Under the pieces are notes generated by a model. The model saw only the letters and a program-made list of their open reading frames with translations, did not search any database and was not told the origin of the DNA. From Acidobacteriaceae bacterium (lineage in GTDB: Bacteria > Acidobacteriota > Terriglobia > Terriglobales > Acidobacteriaceae), in contig JAOAPC010000017.1 in NCBI GenBank assembly GCA_025462735.1, positions 1 through 64,000 of the forward strand: a stretch of 64,000 nt of DNA, read 5' to 3'. How positions within the stretch are numbered: position 1 is the first letter of the stretch; each line of letters begins with the position of its first letter. The translations under genes were made by a program, and so were the position numbers. This document shows positions 5,372 to 23,818 of the stretch, in pieces.

Positions 5372-5421
5372 TGGTGGAGCTAGTCGGGATCGAACCGACG
5401 ACCTCATCGTTGCGAACGATG
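5372..5421 (-). repeat. attL: 50-bp displaced 3' part of tRNA-Ala
   Basis: Identical over 50 bp to the anticodon-arm-to-CCA portion of the tRNA-Ala gene at the right end. It lacks the 5' half of the tRNA, so it is the original 3' end displaced by integration. The repeat breaks inside the anticodon arm region, a common crossover position for tyrosine integrases that target tRNAs. Confidence 0.92.
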
Positions 5422-5796: not shown

Positions 5797-6366
5797 TCAA
5801 GAGCTATTGCGTTGAGTCTCGACCCGGCTCACATCCAGAATCGGCGCCCCTGAAACAATTTCACACTTGTCGAGCAGCTCGCGAAGATTCCCGCTGAGTC
5901 TCATGCCAGAGAGTGCTTCCCGCGCACACGGCCGGATCGCGTAGACCATTAATCCCTCGAAGAGATCGGCAGCAATGCCGTGCGCCGCGCGTCCGTCTTT
6001 AATGAGCGCATATCGGAAATCTTTCACCGCAATGTGATCGATGCGACTGGATCGGACCGACGTGACCGTCAATTCGAAGTCGCGCACACGCAGTTTTCTT
6101 TGTGATCCGCCAGCGTCGGGAATCCCAAATTCTTGCACCAACGCAATCAGCCGATCCTTCAGGCGCTCCGCTGGCACATCGAGCAAATAAGCAGCCTGAT
6201 ATTCATGCGAAGCCGCTGCTTCTGCTTCGAGGAAGTGATCCAGGAGCGCGGAGGCAGAGCGGACGAATGCCGGCTGAGATAGCGGTGCCAAATGGAATGC
6301 CATAGGCGAGAACCCCATGATAACGTGAGACAAGTTGCTCTGCACCGAAAATGGTGCAAACGGCAA
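5797..6366 (-). CDS. hypothetical protein (up to 189 aa)
   Basis: Soluble protein of unknown family; the most conserved-looking part is residues 90-175. In-frame ATGs at residues 17 and 22 are alternative starts and none has a strong ribosome-binding site. Its stop codon is in frame with the DUF2971 fragment that follows. It may be cargo of the element or a degraded gene. Confidence 0.45.
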   Translation of the reverse strand: MPFAPFSVQSNLSHVIMGFSPMAFHLAPLSQPAFVRSASALLDHFLEAEAAASHEYQAAYLLDVPAERLKDRLIALVQEFGIPDAGGSQRKLRVRDFELTVTSVRSSRIDHIAVKDFRYALIKDGRAAHGIAADLFEGLMVYAIRPCAREALSGMRLSGNLRELLDKCEIVSGAPILDVSRVETQRNSS

Positions 6367-6540
6367 ATCCGGGGAAATGCCTCAGGCGGGATTTCCCCGG
6401 GTTAAAGAATTTCGCGCATGTTCAATTGCAGCTACCAGCGCGCCGCGAGGAGAACACCGCTGCATGGCGAGCAGCTCGATATCGGTTTTCCGCGGCGCGG
6501 CAGGATGTCGAGGTTTCGCCGACTAGAGCGGGCTGGGCAG

Positions 6541-6720
6541 ATGCGCCTCAATTTGCAGCGGCCGCCTGCAGATTCCCCAAAGCAGGTGAGCAGTGAATCG
6601 GTCTGCGTTAAGTCGGAACCGGAGTCCCTCGAGCAAGCGCTCGATTATCTTTTCCCCGAACGGCCGCTGACAGATCTCGAACTGTTAGATGAGTTCAATC
6701 GGCTGTTTCCGCCACCCTAA
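6541..6720 (+). CDS. small hypothetical protein (about 59 aa), start uncertain
   Basis: The C-terminal 36 residues (from SEPESLEQ to LFPPP) look like a genuine acidic helical peptide with the pattern LEQALDYLFPERPLTDLELLDEF. Candidate starts are the ATG at 6541, an upstream ATG at 6505 or the GTG at 6589; none is decided by a clear Shine-Dalgarno. It is the only plus-strand gene in this part of the element. Confidence 0.4.
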   Translation: MRLNLQRPPADSPKQVSSESVCVKSEPESLEQALDYLFPERPLTDLELLDEFNRLFPPP

Positions 6721-6723
6721 CAA

Positions 6724-6882
6724 CTACTTGCAAGGGCCTTCGGTAATATCGGCGATCTCTTTCGCCGCCGCTGTATCGCCCTTGATGGCTTTTTTGATTT
6801 TGCGCAAGGCAATCATCTCCGCACGCTTTCTGGTGTTGAGTATCGCTTTTCTTTTTTTTGGTGATCTGAGTGATTTGCTCAT
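6724..6882 (-). CDS. small basic helical protein (52 aa)
   Basis: Very basic N-terminus (MSKSLRSPKKRKAILNTRKR) followed by an amphipathic helix and a short acidic end (EIADITEGPCK). It is the last gene of the leftward tail-like module, about 60 bp beyond the DUF5681-like gene. No family recognised; the charge pattern fits a nucleic-acid or structural accessory peptide. Confidence 0.5.
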   Translation of the reverse strand: MSKSLRSPKKRKAILNTRKRAEMIALRKIKKAIKGDTAAAKEIADITEGPCK

Positions 6883-6943
6883 CTTGCTAGCTTACTGAAA
6901 CGCTGAAGAGGTCGCGATCACGGTTTCCTCCCGGCGATGCAAT

Positions 6944-7330
6944 TCACTTGCTCAACTCTTTGGGCTGCTCGTCCACGAACCTGACATTGAGGTTGAAATC
7001 GACGTTAGAAGTGACTTCGGTTCCTTCCCCACCGTCCGGCGTTCCGTCGAGCATGTCGCGGACTTCGGTGAACCAGCCGAGCGAACGAGCGGCTTCTTTG
7101 AGAGCTTTTTCGGCGATTTGTTTTATGAGAGAAGGGTCCGCCAGGATGGCTGATTCAATGGCATCAAGGAGGGGTTTTCGTTTTGGACGACCGCCTGGAT
7201 TCCCAGACTCGCCTGACTTGAATTGAGTGGTTTTCCCGATGCTAGGATCGACGCCGCCATTTAGCAGCTTCACGCCATTTACACGCCTGTTCTGTGGCGT
7301 GGAAGGCTTTTCCTTTTTCGCTTTTTTCAT
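6944..7330 (-). CDS. DUF5681-like phage/mobile-element protein
   Basis: 128 aa. The central motif QFKSGESGNPGGRPKRKP matches the FKxGxSGNPxGRPK signature of DUF5681 proteins, which recur in phage and island gene clusters, sometimes near packaging genes. A helical part follows (about 60-95). The first 27 codons are embedded in a 66-bp repeat that also occurs at 13968-14033, so the lysine/proline/asparagine-rich N-terminus is repeat-derived. It lies 16 bp downstream of the 149-aa gene, so the two are probably cotranscribed. Confidence 0.65.
   Translation of the reverse strand: MKKAKKEKPSTPQNRRVNGVKLLNGGVDPSIGKTTQFKSGESGNPGGRPKRKPLLDAIESAILADPSLIKQIAEKALKEAARSLGWFTEVRDMLDGTPDGGEGTEVTSNVDFNLNVRFVDEQPKELSK
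7253..7318. repeat. 66-bp repeat with hairpin, copy A (inside the DUF5681-like gene)
   Basis: Differs from 13968-14033 at about 5 of 66 positions. It contains a stem CACGCC / GGCGTG (7282-7287 and 7296-7301) around the loop tgttctgt. Both copies have the same orientation and flank the whole tail-like module. Confidence 0.75.
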
Positions 7331-7346
7331 CTACGATTCCGAGATA

Positions 7347-7796
7347 TCAGTTCAAATGTTTCAATGAGGGAGCTCGAGCAACCTGCGACCTCTGCATCTC
7401 CATGATCATTCCCAATGACGCGAGGAAAGGCTCGAACGCCACCTGCCAAATCTGCGCAAAGGACCGGGTGTAATCACGGTCATACGCAGCTGCGGCGATT
7501 TCTTCTTTGTGCTCTATCAAGCTCGGTGCGTAGGAGAAGATGAGCGCCGGAAGTTTCTCCGGAAATCGGAGCATAGCTCCCATCAGTCCGCGCCCGATCG
7601 CCTTGGCCAGTGCCTGTGGATCATGCTCTTGTTCAAACTGCGCCGGCATCGCGTCAAAAAGTTCGTTGTTTAGCGTGAAGTACTCCTCCCGCCATTTGGC
7701 GGCCGGGATGGATCTGAGCACAGGTACGGCATACTCTTGTTCGCCGAATGTCAGCTTCAGCTCTTTCAGAACCTCGGAATCAGAACTGTTAGTCAT
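7347..7796 (-). CDS. putative phage tail assembly chaperone-like protein
   Basis: 149 aa. The N-terminal strand-rich segment (LKLTFGEQEYAVPVLRSIPAAKW) and helical remainder are of the kind found in small tail-tube/tail-assembly chaperones encoded beside tape-measure genes. A strong GGGAGG lies 7 nt before the ATG. Against this reading, the gene comes after the tape-measure and fibre genes instead of before them, and no frameshifted extension is seen. Function is therefore inferred from context and fold-like pattern only. Confidence 0.5.
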   Translation of the reverse strand: MTNSSDSEVLKELKLTFGEQEYAVPVLRSIPAAKWREEYFTLNNELFDAMPAQFEQEHDPQALAKAIGRGLMGAMLRFPEKLPALIFSYAPSLIEHKEEIAAAAYDRDYTRSFAQIWQVAFEPFLASLGMIMEMQRSQVARAPSLKHLN

Positions 7797-7872
7797 ACAA
7801 TTTACCTCCCTCTTTTTCGATGTCGAACTTTAAGCCTTCCTCGTGGTTGCGATCTTCGTGCGCTCGCTCTGG

Positions 7873-9162
7873 TCAGGGGCGGGCTACCGCCTCGGTGGCG
7901 TCGAAGTAGTCGATCTGCATGTCGCCATTCACCGCCCCGTTGTTTGCCACTCCAAAGAAAGGCGTGAAGGCGTTGCCAACGTAAATATTTACCCCGCTCG
8001 ATGTGCAAACGGTGGAATGGTCGATCTTGAAGGTGACTACTGATCCGCTCGGTGACCCGTTCCCGGTGGCCGTCAGCGGAGCAACATCAATTTCAAACCA
8101 GTGATAACTGGTGTCCTGGGCGATGCCGCTGTCGAAGAAGCTGTATCCAAATCCTGATCCACCCGTCACGCAGCCAAAGTTCGTTGCGGTTCCAGTCCGC
8201 GATGATCCCATGAACGCGATCATGTTAGCGCCGGTCGGATTATTTAAGCCGCGACCGTCTACCAGTCCGAACTGTTGATTAGTAGCGTTGGTGGCATTGT
8301 TCCCAGACACCAGCCGCATGTAGGCGCGCGTGACCAAGGGCAGTGAGCCATTCAAATAGAAAGTCCCGGTTAGCGAAATCGTGCCTGTAGTGCCGTTCGC
8401 ATTCAGTTCAAACGTGCAGGGCTGGTTGACGTTCGAGCCCGCTGGCTGTGTGACCGTAATTGTTCCGGTCGCTACCCAATCCAGATCGCCGTTCTTTCCG
8501 CAGAACTCATCCTTCAAATAGACCTGCAAGCGAGGATCCGCTGTTCCGTATCCGCCAGCCGTAGCAAACGAGGCTGCAACGGTCTGCCCGGAAGTGGAGA
8601 CGTTCGGTGCGATGCTTCCATTGGCGGTTTCGCCTTTGTCGTGGCAGCTCGTGCTGGCCACTGCTGGACAGTCACCGGTTGTGAGTTTTCCGACGGTCGC
8701 CGGCGTTCCGCCCGAGATCACTCGGTAAACGTCATAGCTCGAAGCGCTCGGAACCGCGGTCCAGGAAAGATTGATGTAGTTCGAGCTCGTGAGCGTGGCA
8801 TTACCTGTGGCTATGCGCGCCGCCGGGGAGCAGGTGGTGTTTCCGGAAAGATTCGCAACCACGCAATACGAATAAGCGGTTGATCCGGCGCTTCCGGTTG
8901 TGGTCAACGTTGGAGCCGTGATTGGATTCGCAACGCCGGTGTTAGAACCGCCTGATCCAGATTGGGGAACCCATGCGCTGCCATTCCAGGTCAACACCTG
9001 GCTAGTTGACGGTGAGCCAGCGATCAAGTTGATTAGCGCTTGCGCGCCTGTGCTCGCTCCGGTTCCGCCCATGTAGATTTGCAGGATGGAAGGGCCAGCA
9101 ATGGCGATGGTCGTGAGACAGATGCAAAGTAGGACGAGAAATGTGTTGAACAATTTGTTCAT
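7873..9162 (-). CDS. secreted tail-fibre-like protein
   Basis: 429 aa. A typical signal peptide (residues 1-22, hydrophobic core LVLLCICLTTIAIA) is followed by MGGTGASTGAQALINLI and QVLTWNGSAWVPQ, motifs common at the N-terminus of phage tail fibres. A fibronectin-III-like segment follows (about 85-150, INLSWTAVPSASSYDVYRV). The Gly/Thr/Asn-rich C-terminal half has cysteine pairs and resembles a lectin/jelly-roll domain. A cleavable signal peptide is unusual for a tail protein. It sits directly downstream of the tape-measure gene on the same strand. Confidence 0.7.
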   Translation of the reverse strand: MNKLFNTFLVLLCICLTTIAIAGPSILQIYMGGTGASTGAQALINLIAGSPSTSQVLTWNGSAWVPQSGSGGSNTGVANPITAPTLTTTGSAGSTAYSYCVVANLSGNTTCSPAARIATGNATLTSSNYINLSWTAVPSASSYDVYRVISGGTPATVGKLTTGDCPAVASTSCHDKGETANGSIAPNVSTSGQTVAASFATAGGYGTADPRLQVYLKDEFCGKNGDLDWVATGTITVTQPAGSNVNQPCTFELNANGTTGTISLTGTFYLNGSLPLVTRAYMRLVSGNNATNATNQQFGLVDGRGLNNPTGANMIAFMGSSRTGTATNFGCVTGGSGFGYSFFDSGIAQDTSYHWFEIDVAPLTATGNGSPSGSVVTFKIDHSTVCTSSGVNIYVGNAFTPFFGVANNGAVNGDMQIDYFDATEAVARP

Positions 9163-9202
9163 AGTTTTAATACCTGTACCAGGCGAGAATATTTGCCCCT
9201 GC

Positions 9203-11479
9203 TTAAGCCTTCCTGATCGTTTTATCCGAAGTGGTTGCGTGCAGGCGGATGCGGCCGGTTTTGGCTTGGTACGTGATCTCTGTAACCAGTGCCGATAAGC
9301 TGCCGTGCAAATGGATTTCGGGAACGCCGCCAGAATTGCCGAGGTTCTTCATCTGCGCTGTAATTGCGCTGGCGATCGCTTTCAGTGCTGGCCCGTTGTC
9401 GAGCGGAATCACAGCTTCGCGCGAGCTGCCGCCATTCGGCGAATCGCCGATCACGGCCAGAGTCGGACCGGTCACTAGCCCCCCGGAAGCTAAATGGGTG
9501 ACGTTCACTACTTGCGATGGCTGCTGGGAATTGATGTTGGGACTATTCGCAGCAGGAGCAGCGGAACCAGCAGACGCGGATGACGAAGCTTTTGAGCCAC
9601 CGACGTTCGACCCGACAGCGCCTAGCGCTCCTGCGAGAGCTTCTAAGGCAGCACCAGCTGCAAACTCTGCTGCTGCTGCTGCCGGATTAAGAAAGATGTC
9701 AGCAGTGGCCTTGCCGATAAAGAACGCTCCCCAATACTGAGCCATCGAAGCGACAGCTTTGGCGACAAGGCGTTCCATCGCTTGAGCCGCTGATGCCGTG
9801 CCTGCGACCATCTCTTGGGTAGCCTGGTTCATGCCTGCTGCAAGGTTGGCGATGACGCCGACTGCGGTGCCCTCCAAAAGCTTAAAGGCGCTAGCTCCAG
9901 CCGCTAGCTCCGTAGTTAGAGCCTGCTCCCATTCTTTTATGGCATTCTTTGATTTGCCAAAGTCGTGATCGAGATTCTGGATCGCCTTCTGGAGTTGCTG
10001 AATCTGCTGCACACCGCCATGCGATGCGATGGCCTGCTGTAGCTGAACCTGAAGTAACTGGCGCAGCTCGGTTACGAGCTTCCTGACGGCGTCGCTTGAG
10101 GCCCCGGTCTGAAGCGCAAAATTGAGTTCGGCCTTGACTAAAGCAACGTAACCTTTATCGACATCCCTTTGGGTGACGATGCCTACTTTCTGCAACTGAA
10201 TCAGCTTGTCGTAAGCGTCGTAGGCAGCGGCGAGTCCGGAATGCAGGTTGCTTTGAAGGGTTATTCCCAATCCCTTTGCGGCAGCATCTGCTTGCTGGAA
10301 GCCCTTGGTGATTGCATTTGAAATCTCGTCCATTCCCGGCGGGGCTTCGGTGACGAGCGGGATGGGTTCTTTGCCGAGCTGCCGGAGTTCTGTAAACGCC
10401 TTTGCATAGATCGCCCTGATCTTGTTGTTGTGCTCGTCGATTAGTTTCTCGATGTCGGCACTGAGTTTCTGCCGCTCGCCTTTCGTCTTGTCGCCTTCAA
10501 AGGTTAAGGCGGAGATGCGCAGAGCGATTGCACGAATCTGGTTATTAAGCTGATCTTCATTGGCTTTATTCTCTACCGCGAGAATCCGCGAATAGCTGCC
10601 GCCCGTTATCGCTAGCTTCAGAAGGGCTTCGGATTCCGCGACGGAAATTCTGGCCTGAGATGCGGTTTTTACCGCAGCGATGCGTTCTTCTTCCGCCTTC
10701 ACTACTTCCGCAGTCTGTTGCGCATCATGCTGCTCTTGAAAAAGCGTCAGCTGTTCGGTCTGGGTTTTGATCGTCGCCGTGAGCTGGTTTACTTTATTCT
10801 CATAGGTGCTGGCCTCTCCGGTGACGCCCACAAAGCCGTTGCGCAGGCCGTAGAGCTGATCTTCCGCCGCGCGTACTGCGTTCTTGTTTTTGTTAATCGA
10901 TTCAGTGAGATCGTTGATCTTTGATTGCGTAAGCGCTGAGCCGGTCAGCCCGAACTCTTCGAGCGCTTTCTGGGCTTTGCCGTAGGCTGCTACCTGTTCG
11001 AGAATCGCCTTATTGGTTGCCGCGATGCTGGCGTTAGAGGCTTTCATGGCCTCAGTGAAGATGAATGTCTCAGAAACCCACGCGCTCATCTTCTCGGCGG
11101 CCTGGATGATCGCCTGAATCACGAATAGAATAGCCGTCGCTTCAAAGGCTGAGGAGAGCGCCTGACCGACTCCGGGCAACTCCGCGATGAAGGACCGGAC
11201 GTGGCGCGGCAGATGAATGCCGAACTGTTCGCCCAGTAAGGCCGCTTCCCCGCGGGCCTCATACATCGATTCTTTGACCTTCTCGCCCGAGAGCAGAGTG
11301 ACTTCGCCCATCTCGACCGCACCTCGTGAACTGACCGCCATGCGCCCGGTCATCTGGTCCACTGAGTCCGACGTCGCGTTGATCGCAGCTTGAGCAGGCG
11401 CGAGCTTCGTAGGGACAGCCTCGCCAAGCGAGGCAATCTGCGCCATTGCCGCCTGCTCATCAAAAAGCAGAGTCAACAC
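9203..11479 (-). CDS. phage tail tape-measure-like protein
   Basis: About 758 aa, mostly alpha-helical with coiled coils (residues about 150-520), a hydrophobic Ala/Gly-rich helix region (about 590-640), and the C-terminal motif HLASGGLVTGPTLAVIGDS followed by SREAVIPL, which is characteristic of tail tape-measure proteins. I favour the GTG preceded by AGGAG (start 11479); a GTG at 11503 is the alternative. Tape-measure length sets tail length in siphophages, and this one is in the short-to-medium range. It is the strongest structural phage gene in the element. Confidence 0.82.
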   Translation of the reverse strand: MLTLLFDEQAAMAQIASLGEAVPTKLAPAQAAINATSDSVDQMTGRMAVSSRGAVEMGEVTLLSGEKVKESMYEARGEAALLGEQFGIHLPRHVRSFIAELPGVGQALSSAFEATAILFVIQAIIQAAEKMSAWVSETFIFTEAMKASNASIAATNKAILEQVAAYGKAQKALEEFGLTGSALTQSKINDLTESINKNKNAVRAAEDQLYGLRNGFVGVTGEASTYENKVNQLTATIKTQTEQLTLFQEQHDAQQTAEVVKAEEERIAAVKTASQARISVAESEALLKLAITGGSYSRILAVENKANEDQLNNQIRAIALRISALTFEGDKTKGERQKLSADIEKLIDEHNNKIRAIYAKAFTELRQLGKEPIPLVTEAPPGMDEISNAITKGFQQADAAAKGLGITLQSNLHSGLAAAYDAYDKLIQLQKVGIVTQRDVDKGYVALVKAELNFALQTGASSDAVRKLVTELRQLLQVQLQQAIASHGGVQQIQQLQKAIQNLDHDFGKSKNAIKEWEQALTTELAAGASAFKLLEGTAVGVIANLAAGMNQATQEMVAGTASAAQAMERLVAKAVASMAQYWGAFFIGKATADIFLNPAAAAAEFAAGAALEALAGALGAVGSNVGGSKASSSASAGSAAPAANSPNINSQQPSQVVNVTHLASGGLVTGPTLAVIGDSPNGGSSREAVIPLDNGPALKAIASAITAQMKNLGNSGGVPEIHLHGSLSALVTEITYQAKTGRIRLHATTSDKTIRKA

Positions 11480-11535
11480 GCAATCTCCTATGTCAATGGC
11501 CACCGCACACCCCTTAAGTAATTACTCGGAAGATT

Positions 11536-13917: not shown

Positions 13918-13967
13918 AAGCCTGTTTAATGCCTGTTCTCAGGCATTCGCGACTTCTAAAAACCGCC

Positions 13968-14083
13968 GCCGCCATTTAGCAGTTCCACGCCATTTCCACG
14001 CCTTTTATGTGGCGTGGAAGGCTTTTCCTTTTTTGGTGGTTTTCCGCCATTTATCCGCCTGTTCTGTGGCGGAAGCGACTTTC
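13968..14083. repeat. 66-bp repeat copy B plus a shorter adjacent copy C, with conserved hairpins
   Basis: 13968-14033 matches 7253-7318 at about 61 of 66 positions. An adjacent shorter relative lies at 14044-14083. Hairpin stems differ in sequence but keep pairing: ttccacgcc / ggcgtggaa (13994-14002, 14011-14019) in B and ccgcc / ggcgg (14055-14059, 14068-14072) in C, both around an 8-nt loop. The region does not encode a convincing protein. Confidence 0.7.
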
Positions 14084-14276: not shown

Positions 14277-15560
14277 TTAGCCTGACGCCATCGCATCAGA
14301 TGGTGCGCCGCTGCCCACTCCTTCGCGCTGTGGCAGCTTCCTGGTGGCCTGGAGGCGCTGCGCTGCCCCTCGCTGCATGCGAGCCGAGGCGTCTCTTAGA
14401 TCGTCCGGATCAATGATGTGATAACGATCAAAAATTGACCTGGTTTGGTGTCCCGAGATCTCCATTGCCACCTTCTCGCGCACACCATCGCGGACCATGT
14501 TCCGGACTGCAGATCGTCGCAAATCATGAAAGAGTAAGTTCGGACAGCCCGCTCGCTTGACGACTCGCTTCCAATCTTTCGCAAAATTCGCGACCGGCCG
14601 GCCGGTTGTGTTTGTAGCAGCGATCCTCGCGCGAAGGATTTCCTGAGCTTCAGTTTCGCTCTCGGTTTTGGCGCTTTCTCTGACCGGCTTGCCGTCCTGC
14701 CAGAATTGAGTCCACCAAAACTTACTCGCGCGATATCTGAACACTGTGCCTGTCCGAGGCAGCCGAGTGAACACGTGATCATCGGGATTCTTGCGGGCTA
14801 CACACTGCGTGAGCAATTCGAAAACTAGATCGCTCATCACCACACAGCGCGATTTTCCGTTCTTTGTTTGGGATCCTTCGAGCGAGATGGTGCGCTCTGA
14901 AAGATTCACCTGGCCAACCCTCAGATCGAGAAGTTCTCCTTTCCTCCAGCCATACGTGATCGCGACCTCAAACATTGCACGAAGCCAGAGCCCGACCTTC
15001 TGCGTCTCTCGAGCGAGAGCTTCATATTGGGCATCGGGAACGAAACCCGAACGCGCGTTGTTCGTCGGAAGAATTGGGACATAAGGACGTTGGCTGGGTT
15101 TCAGGACGTTCATCTCGATCGCCAGTTGATACATGCGCTTGAGCATTGCACTTTCATTATTTATCGTCGCGCTCATCGCTCCCTGTTGCTGGCGTTCCGC
15201 GATGTAAGAGGAGATCTCGGTTGCGGTGATGGATGCGGCGCGCCGGCCCCCGAATTGCGGGCCAAGGTGCTTATTCCATGTGAGCTTGATGTTTCGTAGG
15301 CTCCTTCGCTTCTTGGTCGCGTAGTCGCGTTCGATGAGCGAGAAGAGATCCCGAACCAAGACAGCAGCCATCTCCTTACCCTGTGGACTCGCAGTGGCAG
15401 TGAAATCGAGGGCCCGGAATAGTTTTGCCTTCAGGTAGGAAAGCCAGTCATCGAGCTGACTTGGACTGCAAAGCACTCCCGCGTTTTTCAGATCGATGAG
15501 GCGATTGATCAGCTCGATGCCGAGCTGCTCGCTCTCTTGGCTCCAAACTTCCTGGCTCAC
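14277..15560 (-). CDS. tyrosine recombinase / phage integrase (second copy)
   Basis: 427 aa from a GTG preceded by AGGAGG; the frame extends further upstream but has no better signal. An N-terminal SAM-like/core-binding part (about 70-180) is followed by the catalytic domain with Arg in TYGWRKGELLDL, the box FHDLRRSAVRNM, and SGHQTRSIFDRYHI with the nucleophilic Tyr. All catalytic residues are present. It lies mid-element, away from both att repeats, and is divergent from an XRE gene with operator-like palindromes between them. It could come from a nested element or act in DNA inversion, resolution or cargo mobility. Confidence 0.88.
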   Translation of the reverse strand: MSQEVWSQESEQLGIELINRLIDLKNAGVLCSPSQLDDWLSYLKAKLFRALDFTATASPQGKEMAAVLVRDLFSLIERDYATKKRRSLRNIKLTWNKHLGPQFGGRRAASITATEISSYIAERQQQGAMSATINNESAMLKRMYQLAIEMNVLKPSQRPYVPILPTNNARSGFVPDAQYEALARETQKVGLWLRAMFEVAITYGWRKGELLDLRVGQVNLSERTISLEGSQTKNGKSRCVVMSDLVFELLTQCVARKNPDDHVFTRLPRTGTVFRYRASKFWWTQFWQDGKPVRESAKTESETEAQEILRARIAATNTTGRPVANFAKDWKRVVKRAGCPNLLFHDLRRSAVRNMVRDGVREKVAMEISGHQTRSIFDRYHIIDPDDLRDASARMQRGAAQRLQATRKLPQREGVGSGAPSDAMASG

Positions 15561-15600
15561 TGGCGGTTCCGACCTCCTGTCGGCAGGAACTCTATCGCGA

Positions 15601-15642
15601 GAACACAATAGTGTGCAACACAAAAAGAACACTCTAGTGTTG
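15601..15642. promoter_or_regulatory. paired palindromic operators between integrase 2 and the XRE gene
   Basis: gaacacaatagtgtgc (15601-15616) and gaacactctagtgttg (15627-15642) share AACAC-N2/3-TAGTGT dyad symmetry, centres 26 bp apart. A further half-site agtgttc is at 15666-15672. They lie in the divergent intergenic region, the expected position for binding by the adjacent XRE repressor. Confidence 0.6.
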
Positions 15643-15692
15643 AATACTGCAGAGTGTAGACTGAAAGTGTTCACCTGCCCCAAGATGATGCG

Positions 15693-15902
15693 GTGAACTC
15701 CCAGCGCATGTTTGGCCAGATCATCCGCGAATTGCGAATCAAGCGAGGTCTATCCCAAGAAGCCCTCGCCGATCTGACCGGACTGCATCGCAACTACGTA
15801 GGAAGCGTGGAACGCGGTGAGCGGAACCTGAGCCTAAACAACATCCTCAAACTGGCTAAAGCGCTGCAGGTCCGCCCCGCCAAATTATTCGAGAAGTTCT
15901 AG
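15693..15902 (+). CDS. short XRE-family regulator (69 aa), C-protein/repressor type
   Basis: Consists of almost only an HTH_3 domain: [49 protein letters not shown]. Start is a GTG, or the ATG five codons later; both have weak ribosome-binding sites. It is divergent from integrase 2 and convergent with the early operon (9 bp apart). About 60% identical by eye to the other short XRE protein at 19687-19902. Probable autoregulator acting on the two palindromes upstream. Confidence 0.8.
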
Positions 15903-18478: not shown

Positions 18479-18640
18479 ATGGCAAAGAACCCGCACGCTG
18501 CAGCTCTCGGTAGAAAAGGCGGAAAAGTGCGCATGAGTAAGTTGACCGCAGAGGAGCGCACGAAATTGGCTCGAGAAGCCGGCCGTGCTTCCGGGAAAGT
18601 GCGTAGGGCGAAGGCGAAGAAGCCGAAGGAATCCAGATAA
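18479..18640 (+). CDS. small basic protein (53 aa), KGGKxR/LTxEER type
   Basis: Highly basic: AALGRKGGKVRMSKLTAEER then KLAREAGRASGKVRRAKAKK. Short proteins of this pattern (GRKGGKxR...LTxEER...ARxAxxAR) are widespread in soil bacteria and are usually unannotated; they resemble histone-H1-like or seed-protein-like DNA-binding peptides. It is the first plus-strand gene after the operators and is followed directly by a strong terminator, so it forms its own transcription unit. Confidence 0.6.
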   Translation: MAKNPHAAALGRKGGKVRMSKLTAEERTKLAREAGRASGKVRRAKAKKPKESR

Positions 18641-18691: not shown

Positions 18692-18797
18692 AAATTCGGT
18701 GAGCGGCAAGCTCTAGAAATGGAGTCTAGTCGCCGTGTGTGCCGGTGGTCAAGACGATGGCGTCCTGTGGTTGTTGCCTGCATTGGAGTGCATACAA

Positions 18798-19604
18798 ATG
18801 CCCAGCGCAATTCTTCCGTTCTACACGTCTGAGGGGTTCTTGATCGCTGCGGATGGCAGGACGCGAGTCAATGGAGAAAAGCGCGACGATCAGACGATAA
18901 AGATTTTTCAGCTTGCAGAGCCGGGTAGATCGTTCGCTTATGCCTTTGGTGGAACTGTTGGGTTTACCGACAAAGAAAATGAGGATTTGATCCTGTTCGA
19001 TCTGCGTGATGAGATTTTAAAAATCATTAAATCGCTGAGAATGACCAATCACAAAAACTTCAAATCATATGCTGGCAAGATTGTGGCCCGTCTCCACGAG
19101 GGGCTAACGAAGGCGCTAACAAATGAAAGAATGGAGCGCCTTAAGGATGAAGGAACAGTCGAAGAGCCCGCCCTTGTCGCTTGTCTGATACTCGTTGGCT
19201 ATTACGAGAAAGAGCCTTCCTGGATCGCAATCCGATTCCCACACATAAAGCAAACATTGCTTGAGCCAGAGCCAGAAATTATGCCGCTCCAAAAGGGATA
19301 CAGACCGCCCGTAGTCTACGGTTCACAGATCATTGCGCGACGACTTTTTGACACCGACGACCCGACCTTCGCTAAGTACCGAGTTCCAAGGGTAAATGAC
19401 GCAGAGAACGTAACCTTGGGAGAAGTTGCGGAAGCTGCCAAGAAGTACATCCTAGCTTGCGCAGATCCAGAAGTAATAAAGATTGACCCCGTAATCTGTG
19501 CGGCCATAGGCGGCCACATCCACATGGCAAAGGTCACCCCAAAAGACGGTTTTGCATGGCTGCCAGAATATCGCCCTGTCACGGCCTCAATAATTTCGCC
19601 GTGA
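18798..19604 (+). CDS. proteasome/HslV-like Ntn-hydrolase-family protein (candidate)
   Basis: 268 aa from an ATG with GGAG 9 nt upstream. The N-terminus MPSAILPFYTSEGFLIAADG resembles the first strands of proteasome beta/HslV subunits. If S3 is placed at the Thr1 position, D19, R21 and K35 fall without gaps on the family's D17, R/Q19 and K33, and the ADGR turn resembles HslV GDGQ. Thus the catalytic frame may be kept with Ser instead of Thr. The remaining 200 residues are mixed alpha/beta and unlike a minimal beta subunit. It sits alone after a terminator and before an XRE gene, like cargo. Function unknown; family placement is inference from motif spacing. Confidence 0.55.
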   Translation: MPSAILPFYTSEGFLIAADGRTRVNGEKRDDQTIKIFQLAEPGRSFAYAFGGTVGFTDKENEDLILFDLRDEILKIIKSLRMTNHKNFKSYAGKIVARLHEGLTKALTNERMERLKDEGTVEEPALVACLILVGYYEKEPSWIAIRFPHIKQTLLEPEPEIMPLQKGYRPPVVYGSQIIARRLFDTDDPTFAKYRVPRVNDAENVTLGEVAEAAKKYILACADPEVIKIDPVICAAIGGHIHMAKVTPKDGFAWLPEYRPVTASIISP

Positions 19605-19686: not shown

Positions 19687-19902
19687 ATGAACCCAAATCC
19701 AAAGACAATCTTCGGCAACACGATTCGCGAACTGAGGCTGAAGCTGGAGCTTAGTCAAGCCGAGCTTGCGATCCGGGCAGGGCTGCACCGCAACTACATC
19801 GGCGGAATTGAACGCGGAGAAAGGAATGTTTCGCTGATCAATATCCAAGCCCTGGCTCGTGCGCTGCAAACCCGTCCTGGCAAGCTGTTTCAGACTTTGT
19901 AG
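19687..19902 (+). CDS. short XRE-family regulator (71 aa), paralogue of the other short XRE protein
   Basis: HTH_3 with IRELRLKLELSQAELAIRAGLHRNYIGGIERGERN, very close to the 69-aa protein at 15693-15902 (shared GLHRNY, ERGERN, LARALQ/LAKALQ and RP.KLF). The ATG at residue 10 of the open frame fits the paralogue's start. The two paralogues in one element suggest either a bistable switch pair or the merger of two elements. Its stop is followed at once by the AGGGGG ribosome-binding site of the next gene. Confidence 0.8.
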   Translation: MNPNPKTIFGNTIRELRLKLELSQAELAIRAGLHRNYIGGIERGERNVSLINIQALARALQTRPGKLFQTL

Positions 19903-21635: not shown

Positions 21636-22291
21636 TGCACGAGCCATGGTTCAAGTTATTCGCTTCGGACTATCTGCTTGATGCCGACGTCGATGCCATG
21701 CCTCGCGAGGCAGGAGAACTACTTCTCCGCATGTGGTGCGTCTGCCACATCCATGGATACTGTCCATCAGATCCTGAAGAACTCGCCAGGTTGACACGTT
21801 GTAAGCTGTCGTACGTTTCTCAGAACCTTTCGCACTGTCTCCCACTCTTCGAATTACGTGGCGATCGCCTTTACAGCCGGCGCATGGAAAGGGAGAAAGA
21901 AAAATCCGCTGCGGCGAGTAAGAGCGCAAAGACGCGGTGGGATCGCAATGCGAAACGCAATGCGAACCGCAATGCTCAGAAGTCAGGTTCAGGTTCAGGT
22001 TCAGGTTCAAATTCTCCAGAAGCAACCCCTATATCCCCATGCGAAAGGACCTCGGCTGCGACTGCTGGGATCGCACAACTCACAAGTCGCGATATCAGAA
22101 ACGTCGCCAGGGAGGTGCAGGAACTAAGTGCGGGTGATCTCGCTGGACATGCTGACAAAGAGGCCATTTTCGAAATAGCGTGTGATCGCTGGGAACTTAA
22201 TCCTTCGCTCGTGAGAGCTGCGGCCGGGCGCTCTTCACTGGAATCGAAGTCGAACGGAAGGTCTCGCTCAAAGGCGGTCAACATCGCATGA
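21635..22291 (+). CDS. DUF1376-like phage replication protein
   Basis: 218 aa. N-terminal HEPWFKLFASDYLLDADVDA and MPREAGELLLRMWC match the DUF1376 pattern (W/P-x-x-x-x-DYL..T, then a hydrophobic helix), a domain at the N-terminus of many phage replication initiator-like proteins. The middle carries a low-complexity stretch: basic K/R/N repeats, then GSGSGSGS encoded by a caggtt hexamer array (21984-22007). The C-terminal part is helical. It is coupled to genes on both sides (TGATG before, ATGA after). Confidence 0.65.
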   Translation: MHEPWFKLFASDYLLDADVDAMPREAGELLLRMWCVCHIHGYCPSDPEELARLTRCKLSYVSQNLSHCLPLFELRGDRLYSRRMEREKEKSAAASKSAKTRWDRNAKRNANRNAQKSGSGSGSGSNSPEATPISPCERTSAATAGIAQLTSRDIRNVAREVQELSAGDLAGHADKEAIFEIACDRWELNPSLVRAAAGRSSLESKSNGRSRSKAVNIA

Positions 22292-23685
22292 GCGCGCGCC
22301 GACCCGCATCACCGGAGATAACGGACGCCTCGAACTGTGCAAACGTACAGTGTGCAACGAATGATACGATTCGCGCTGAGGCAACTAACCCGGCGAGCCA
22401 TCGGGAGAACGAAGCGATGGCGAGACGGAGGTTCCAACAACCAACACCGTTCAAGGAGGGGAATTTTTGGTGGTTGCGTGTCTGGGATACGAGCAAGACG
22501 GGCAGCCGCAAACGTCAACGCATCAAGCTAGCCAATGCGGACATGGCGGTCCGCGAAGTGCAGAAAATCGTCGACGAAAGACTCCGCCCGATGAATCAGG
22601 GGTTGGGTCTCACCGGATCGGCGATGAGTTTAAGTGACTTCATGGAAGACTGTTACATACCACGCTACTTGCGATCGGCGGCGCCAGGGCGCGCGGCGGA
22701 ACTTTCGAGCAGTACTCGCGAATGCTACCGCGGCGTGATCTCAAAATACCTGCAGCCGGATCTCGGGAAGCGGTGCCTGCGCGATCTCACCCGCCCGAAG
22801 CTGCAAGAGTATTTTTCGTACAAGGCGGCTGAGGTGTCGTATCCGACGATGTCGAAGATTAGGGATGCACTCTCTTCGGTTCTCCGCTCTGCGGTTGACG
22901 TGGAGTACCTCAACAAAAACCCGATGGAAGGGCTGCGGTTGCCGAAGGACCGGCGACCCAGGCGACCGAAGCCCACCATCACGCCCGAGCAGTTCGCCAA
23001 TCTCGTGCAACTCCTTTCCGAGCCCTACGCGACGATGATATTCACCGCCGTGTGGACCGGGCTTCGAGTCAGCGAATTGATCGGCCTCAAATGGCGCTGT
23101 ATTCATGCGGACTCTATCACCATCGAAGAACGCTACTGTCGAGGTGATTGGTCGCAGCCGAAAACCGGCGCCAGCGCTGCAACGATCGGTGTGGACCCTG
23201 AAGTCATTGCGCGCCTGCTTCGCCTGCCCACGCTAACCGTGGAAGTGCGAGCCGGCTGTGCTATCCGAAAACACAAACTGGTTAAATCTGGAGGAGCGGA
23301 TGATCTGGTATTCCAGAGCGTGCAGAAAGGTGCCCCCATGAACGATCAGAACATCCTGAAGCGACATCTGCAGCCAGCGGCCAACAAACTCGGTTTGCCG
23401 TTCGTCAATTGGCGCTGCCTGCGAACCTCACACGCGACCTGGTTGGTGCAGGCGGGAGCCGACCCGAAATCGGTGCAGGGACAAATGCGGCACTCTCGCA
23501 TTTCGACGACGATGGATATTTACGCGCAGATCGTACCCAAGTCTCAGCGCCGAGCACTTGAGCAGCTCTCGGCTTTTGCTGGGGTCAACGGCATTCCTGT
23601 AGCGCAGCAAACGGCAAGGGATCTCGATCTAGATTTTTCGGGTTCCGAACCCTTTCCGGAATTACGGTCCAAAACGGTCCAATAA
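22288..23685 (+). CDS. tyrosine integrase of the element (att-proximal)
   Basis: 465 aa; an internal ATG at 22417 with GGGAG is an alternative start giving 422 aa. Arm-binding N-terminus, core-binding domain (about 110-210) and catalytic domain with R260 in [14 protein letters not shown]292, R379, H402 in MRHSRI and nucleophile Y412 in MDIYAQ. The usual HxxR box is here W-R376-C-L-R379, so the first His is replaced by Arg. The last codons contain the tandem acggtccaa arm-type site, so the integrase gene overlaps its own probable binding site. It ends 57 bp from the att repeat, the classic position. Confidence 0.92.
23664..23682 (+). promoter_or_regulatory. candidate integrase arm-type site (right)
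   Basis: Same 19 bp as at 5469-5487 (acggtccaa twice, 10-bp period), located within the last codons of the integrase gene and 60 bp inside the right att repeat, in the same orientation. In the circular form the two sites would flank the core. Confidence 0.6.
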
Positions 23686-23742: not shown

Positions 23743-23792
23743 TGGTGGAGCTAGTCGGGATCGAACCGACGACCTCATCGTTGCGAACGATG
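23743..23792 (-). repeat. attR: 50-bp repeat within the intact tRNA-Ala
   Basis: Identical to 5372-5421. The repeat ends at tRNA position 27, and the 5' part of the tRNA (23793-23818) is unique to this copy. Confidence 0.92.
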
Positions 23793-23818
23793 CGCTCTCC
23801 CAGCTGAGCTATAGCCCC
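23743..23818 (-). tRNA. tRNA-Ala (anticodon CGC)
   Basis: 76-nt cloverleaf on the minus strand: acceptor GGGGCTA pairs with TAGCTCC, D-loop contains AGCTGGGAGAG, anticodon stem CATCG/CGATG with loop TTCGCAA (anticodon CGC, reads GCG), T-loop GGTTCGATCC, encoded CCA. Positions 27-76 are duplicated at 5372-5421. Integration kept this copy whole, so the tRNA stays functional. Confidence 0.96.

Follow-up and report, generated by a model that had tools for sequence, protein, structure and literature searches.

A predicted proteasome-like Ntn protein subfamily of Acidobacteriota is cargo of small transposons and of a prophage-like element

The window analyzed here, a 64,000-nucleotide stretch of DNA from a member of the Acidobacteriaceae, contains an 18.4-kb prophage-like element at a tRNA-Ala gene, and the gene for a putative Ntn protein sits within this element (Table 1). 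The preliminary description had called this gene element-encoded, and the surroundings bear this out: it lies between 50-bp identical tRNA-Ala repeats, in an element with a tyrosine integrase at its tRNA end. A primosomal-like gene is also located between the repeats, and the GC content around the Ntn gene is ~0.50-0.51, vs. 0.54-0.58 in most of the neighboring intervals. Inside the element there is also a 70-bp direct repeat (7249-7318 and 13964-14033; 91% identical). A comparison of the 18.4-kb element with 50,697 phage records returned no near relative.

Table 1. Features of the window around the Ntn gene, and transposons with inverted ends and 8-bp duplications around a family member at other loci (L numbers; ends as matching positions out of 20).
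Feature	Position	Strand	Remarks
Ntn protein gene	18798-19604	+	ATG start, 268 aa; proteasome-like by relatives and predicted fold
Ser3 codon	18804-18806	+	Proteasome Thr1 equivalent, after Met1-Pro2; S/T in 19/19 members; predicted model residue 3 aligned to chain residue 1
Asp19 codon	18852-18854	+	Asp17 equivalent; 19/19 members
Lys35 codon	18900-18902	+	Lys33 equivalent; 19/19 members
KGG-type small basic protein	18479-18640	+	Directly upstream of Ntn gene; no Pfam match
Cro/C1-type helix-turn-helix regulator	19687-19902	+	Downstream of Ntn gene; HTH_3, 1.2e-14
Cro/C1-type regulator	15693-15902	+	HTH_3, 7e-18
Second tyrosine integrase, within element	14277-15683	-	Phage_integrase, 3.6e-20
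Tail tape-measure-like protein	9203-11503	-	phrog_12798, 2.5e-11
Tyrosine integrase adjoining tRNA-Ala	22288-23685	+	Phage_integrase, 2.7e-15; phrog_1, 1.9e-58
Attachment-site repeat	23743-23792	.	Part of intact tRNA-Ala (CGC) gene, 23743-23818; 100% over 50 bp to 5372-5421
Far attachment-site repeat	5372-5421	.	Partial tRNA-Ala copy; other end of the 18.4-kb element
L013 element			IS1595-type; 2.6 kb; ends 17/20
L014 element			IS1595-type; 2.4 kb; ends 17/20
L053 element			IS1595-type; 4.2 kb; ends 17/20
L062 element	5933-11340 (of L062)		IS1595-type; 5.4 kb; ends 17/20
L064 element			IS1595-type; 3.2 kb; ends 18/20
L012 element			IS1-type transposase; 3.8 kb; ends 18/20

The reading frame of the Ntn gene is open from 18717 and includes an in-frame GTG at 18735; the ATG at 18798 is favored as the start because all 19 full-length family members in our alignment begin with either M-[ST]-A-[IL] (13/19) or M-[PS]-[ST]-A-[IV] (6/19). 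Ribosome-binding sites followed no consistent pattern over these 19 starts. The window protein had no match above chance in Pfam, NCBIfam, or PHROG, no relative of it was recovered by tblastn from 50,697 phage records and from plasmid records, and in a scan of viral sequences for which it was the sole query, none of the 11 pattern matches was a relative. The cut-off of the Pfam Proteasome family (PF00227) is reached by none of the 19 members: two match it (best E-value 0.04), and the window protein does not. Membership in a known defense family was considered and set aside, as the PADLOC matches were weak (JetB-like, 0.017; DndH, 0.021; one of the 19 members each) and were taken as chance.

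Four residues singled out in the preliminary description, S3, D19, R21, and K35, are present at these places, and their spacing is the 1-17-19-33 of the proteasome beta subunit. The proposal that Ser occupies the Thr1 position also holds: among the 19 aligned members, which are 21-34% identical to the window protein, this position holds T (17 members) or S (two, the window protein and L013), and Lys35 is likewise kept in all of them, so that the homologs conserve both residues. Arg21 occurs in 15/19 members and is not invariant, and the suggested mimicry of GDGQ by ADGR therefore applies loosely. Gly238 and Trp254 are conserved throughout (19/19 each), and Gly52 (18/19) is a candidate counterpart of the oxyanion glycine (Gly47). 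Given this conservation over 19 members at such low identity, the register of S3, D19, R21, and K35 represents more than chance resemblance.

Methionine aminopeptidase cleaves Met before Pro, Ser, or Thr. Given this specificity, Met removal would leave 13 members with a free Thr or Ser, and would leave a Pro or Ser ahead of the nucleophile in the remaining six, which start with MPS (the window protein), MPT (two members), or MST (three members). The preliminary description raised the question of whether loss of Met1-Pro2 exposes Ser3; as the window protein begins Met-Pro-Ser, Ser3 would be exposed only if Pro2 is also removed, and simple Met excision would not achieve this.

The family is sparsely distributed. 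With the window protein as query, 5/399 genomes of the class match, including the genome of origin, and profile searches identified matches in 4/396 genomes of the phylum (5-row profile), 15/397 genomes of the window's own order, and 7/257 genomes of the order of genome G137 (both with an 8-row profile). A scan of genome contigs with a 4-row profile located three loci, in metagenome-assembled genomes of Acidobacteriaceae or Bryobacterales/Bryobacteraceae, and one IMG/VR viral contig encodes a relative. In these searches, the subfamily was thus found only in Acidobacteriota genomes and in one uncultivated viral contig.

The structure of the window protein was predicted with AlphaFold2 from an input of five sequences (pLDDT 71.5, pTM 0.74), and that of a second member, the protein of L012/L021, which is borne on an IS1-type transposon, was predicted as well (pLDDT 78.2, pTM 0.81). 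By their structural matches, both models correspond to the Ntn alpha-beta-beta-alpha fold, which is defined by strands S1-S11 and helices H1-H4; H1 and H2 are present in both (residues 69-80 and 88-107 in the window model), and the sandwich anticipated in the preliminary description is therefore predicted, as a proteasome-type fold, for two members. For the window model, each of the 50 PDB matches listed by Foldseek is a chain of the 20S proteasome or of Anbu (best E-value 1.4e-6), and the matches listed for the second model are likewise confined to proteasome and Anbu chains. VIA-align superimposed the two models on proteasome beta and Anbu chains in a common register, with a Z-score of 15.5 for the window model (rmsd 3.4, 190 residues) and of 17.6 for the L012/L021 model (rmsd 3.0, 188 residues); in most rows listed for the window model, the alignment begins at residue 3, which stands opposite residue 1 of mature beta chains. 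HslV is absent from the 50 VIA-align rows listed for either model. The alignment of the window model with proteasome-type chains covers residues 1-261, so that the downstream 200 residues, described earlier as differing from known beta subunits, do differ in sequence but not in predicted fold. Query-normalized Foldseek TM-scores among the matches listed are 0.39-0.56 for both models, with an rmsd of ~5-10 Å. As these TM-scores are moderate, the proteasome-like assignment rests on the E-value, Z-score, and residue register taken together. In a viral library, two phage proteins were matched (E-values 3.9e-5 and 2.6e-4).

Sequence profiles lend weaker support. A 19-member profile matched PDB sequences weakly (best proteasome E-value 0.13), with proteasome beta subunits making up 29 of the 38 sequences listed, many of them with the nucleophile position of the profile on residue 1. 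The two top rows (0.0017 and 0.0091) are designed helical proteins and were taken as helix noise. A profile-profile comparison with HslV (hhalign) gave weak similarity, with P = 0.0012 and a probability of 19%, vs. P = 0.41 and 0.18 for the controls.

Transposase genes of IS1595 type (PF12762 and PF12760; a zinc ribbon and an ISXO2-type DDE domain) or IS1 type were encountered near family loci. The family was counted at 23 loci outside the window, and at 13 of these the edge of a transposase or transposase remnant lies within 1 kb of the Ntn gene (L012, L013, L014, L016, L019, L050, L051, L053, L054, L057, L058, L064, and L065; remnants at L050, L051, and L054), and the same is true of 8/17 loci fetched after the pattern was first noticed. 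The other 10 have no transposase within this distance, several of them being on short contigs; at L062, the transposase is 3.4 kb from the Ntn gene in the same element. Not counted among the 23 are five family matches that are weak or very short (L017, L056, L068, L069, and L070), of which L056 alone has a nearby transposase, at a distance of 4 bp. The 22 carrier genomes contain 78 IS1595 and 73 IS1-type matches (151 in 116.8 Mb), which gives an expected adjacency of 0.0049 per locus, or ~0.1 for 23 loci, vs. 13 observed; this figure assumes evenly spread transposases, and a 20-fold local clustering gives P = 8e-7 for the 23. As a separate observation, KGG-type reading frames, as found upstream of the Ntn gene in the window, are located near the Ntn gene at L016 (1393-1701) and L058 (3143-3346) and inside the L012 element (10932-11231), and these three loci all have IS1-type transposases.

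Element boundaries were sought at 11 loci with both an Ntn gene and a transposase, by scanning jointly for exact 8-bp direct repeats and, within them, 20-bp inverted ends. At six of the 11, inverted ends and an 8-bp duplication enclose the transposase and the Ntn gene (Table 1); for L014 and L062, ends were first found without a duplication, which appeared after the ends were shifted. Mismatched flanks of different loci served as the null and peaked at 15/20 (110 pairs), vs. 17-18/20 observed; a score of at least 14 was seen for just one of these 110 pairs, and one shuffle reached 15. L065, a possible element, and L090 reached only 14/20. Complete ends were not found for L057, L019, and L058, and L056 has inverted ends (21/24) without a duplication. 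The scan did not include L016, whose contig stops inside the transposase. Five of 19 other IS1595 copies examined have ends of at least 17/20 (L089, L093, L099, L103, and L107), and none of 17 control IS1595 copies carries the Ntn family. The inverted ends and 8-bp duplications at six loci, together with the lower nulls, identify the Ntn family as recurrent transposon cargo. The subfamily is thus mobile cargo, of IS1595-type and IS1-type transposons and, in the window, of a prophage-like element. Within 6-kb flanks, the window Ntn locus has no transposase, matching inverted ends, or target duplication; the segment 18410-18432 (reverse strand) resembles the L013 IS1595 end, but its orientation is opposite to that expected for an end enclosing the Ntn gene, from which it points away, and the window holds no partner for it.

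Other genes also occur in or next to such transposons. Besides its Ntn gene, the L062 element encodes a RelA/SpoT protein and an N6/N4 methylase fused to an Mrr domain, DUF3800 proteins are co-passengers or neighbors at L065 and L105, a PIN protein occurs at L056, and an IS1595 element at L107 (5547-9586; ends 20/20, 8-bp duplication) encodes a ClpP-like (SDH-type) protease; only L062 and L107 among these loci have ends of 17/20 or better. A protein at L090 (5381-6202) exceeds the Pfam Proteasome cut-off (24.5 bits vs. 22.4) in a locus with weaker ends, and two further Pfam-level proteasome-like genes are located near IS transposases in genomes G900 (contig 85) and G934 (contig 37, outside the delimited element). 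In the vicinity of IS1595/IS1 transposases, we also observed a second proteasome-like group, whose members reach the cut-off of Pfam Proteasome (L090; L058, 3321-4055; L089, ~5799-6023). Two elements of one genome, L065 (4115-8452) and L095 (4312-7760), have IS1595 transposases that are 92% identical and similar ends, and carry different cargo. In the Ntn tree, the supported (starred) branches require at least four IS1595 and at least three IS1 label changes; overall support is low, with 4/16 inner branches starred, the labels are clustered no more than shuffled ones, and the window protein has no firmly placed partner. Repeated capture and exchange of the Ntn cargo is the simplest reading.

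Among known systems, the proteasome-like family offers the nearest comparison. Fuchs, Alva, and Lupas (2021; PMC8665760) described 22 new proteasome-like subfamilies with a patchy distribution and the catalytic residues Thr1/Ser1, Asp17, and Lys33, two of which (PPH and AAH) are strongly phage-linked; the available text of that article names no genomic context that would hint at a function, and the term "Acidobacter" is absent from its main text. The Acidobacteriota subfamily shares with that family, as described there, the predicted Ntn sandwich, the Thr/Ser1-Asp17-Lys33 register, and the patchy spread, and it differs from the 22 subfamilies, as known from their descriptions rather than from alignments, in its transposon and prophage context. 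According to these descriptions, phage PPH has ~140 residues and lacks H2, and connectase lacks both H1 and H2, whereas the window protein has 268 residues and both helices in its model. Anbu (ancestral beta subunit) is among the best structural matches to both models; in contrast, the family found here has no Pfam or NCBIfam match at cut-offs and is borne on mobile elements. On the transposon side, there is precedent for IS families with passenger genes (PMC7986276), and 8-bp repeats accompany ISApl4, a member of the IS1595 family (PMC12561309), as far as the available text of these articles shows. IS1595/IS1 transposons with passenger genes (tIS) correspond to the elements described here in transposase type, inverted ends, and 8-bp duplications; the literature searched (titles and abstract openings) returned no proteasome-like passenger gene in IS elements.

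With its fold and active-site spacing, the window protein could be taken for an ordinary HslV or 20S beta subunit that happens to be sited in a prophage, and HslV in particular is also bacterial and has a Thr near the N-terminus. We consider this very improbable. The GDGQ of the HslV signature TT...GDGQ is absent (the window protein has ADGR), and there is no Pfam or NCBIfam match. A separate HslV is encoded elsewhere in the genome; it is one of two PF00227 matches there, the other being weak and below cut-off. This HslV spans 171-172 aligned residues, vs. 268 in the clearly longer window protein. Among the 10 window neighbors scanned, there is neither an HslU gene nor an alpha-subunit gene, nor was any unfoldase recognized. 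HslV or 20S identity is therefore rejected on the lack of a Pfam or NCBIfam match and the separate HslV, and of the earlier term "proteasome/HslV-like", the proteasome part is retained, on fold and residues, and the HslV part is not. As modeled, the window protein is a divergent proteasome-like Ntn protein. The weak second PF00227 match in the genome (L018; G000 contig 9, 216557-216955) has no IS1595/IS1-type transposase in its 11-kb stretch.

The likeliest role, by analogy with the other cargo, would be that of a Ser/Thr N-terminal hydrolase in mobile-element conflict or maintenance. Two observations favor this role: genes typical of conflict are found in transposons of the same kind, and the Ntn gene is missing from most transposon copies. 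The preliminary description had raised the possibility of a host-control, defense, or anti-defense factor. Ser3 (Thr in most relatives) would be the nucleophile, supported by Asp19 and Lys35; it may be freed directly by Met removal in 13/19 members, and in the six others, including the window protein, we assume either a one-residue trim (by self-cleavage or an aminopeptidase) or loss of activity. Such a hydrolase, perhaps self-assembled, might act on proteins of the host or of rival elements and so help its carrier persist, as restriction/methylation, RelA/SpoT, and PIN cargo may do. Alternatively, the protein could be a transposition helper, one that would, for instance, degrade or trim the transposase or a repressor of the host, with later acquisition by a prophage. 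The adjacency of Ntn genes to transposases of two IS families, recurring over the Ntn tree, is consistent with this, but the 17 other IS1595 copies that lack the family, the close relative of one carrier transposase that moves other cargo (L065/L095), and the window copy that has no transposase make a helper role unlikely. The Met-Pro-Ser start of the window protein would, in turn, fit a protein that is catalytically dead or non-proteolytic, with the fold kept for binding or acting as a ligase, as in connectase. This, too, seems rather improbable: the active-site Ser/Thr, Asp, and Lys are retained in 19/19 members despite low overall identity, a pattern that suggests selection on catalysis, and the H1 and H2 helices that connectase, as described, lacks are predicted in both models.

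Taken jointly, we consider it probable that this is a divergent proteasome-like Ntn subfamily, carried as mobile cargo, and most likely a Ser/Thr hydrolase that aids the persistence of its carrier. The stronger proposal, that IS1595/IS1 transposons and the prophage carry a dedicated proteasome-like protease subfamily as a reusable conflict module that destroys or processes proteins of the host or of competitors, next to methylase/Mrr, RelA/SpoT, PIN, and DUF3800 cargo, is put forward tentatively, as a possibility short of probable. For the proteasome-like subfamilies described so far, which number more than 20, the available text offers almost no clue to function (PMC8665760); here the context is clear and testable. 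Members of this branch of the family appear to be moved about by the mobile DNA that carries them, and carriage by small transposons and a prophage would account for its patchy spread and divergence. As small, single-gene putative Ntn enzymes with a Ser or Thr nucleophile, its members are also material for studying the evolution of proteasome-type catalysis outside the proteasome. If the conflict reading is true, mobile-element warfare, rather than housekeeping, would account for some of the variety seen among proteasome relatives.
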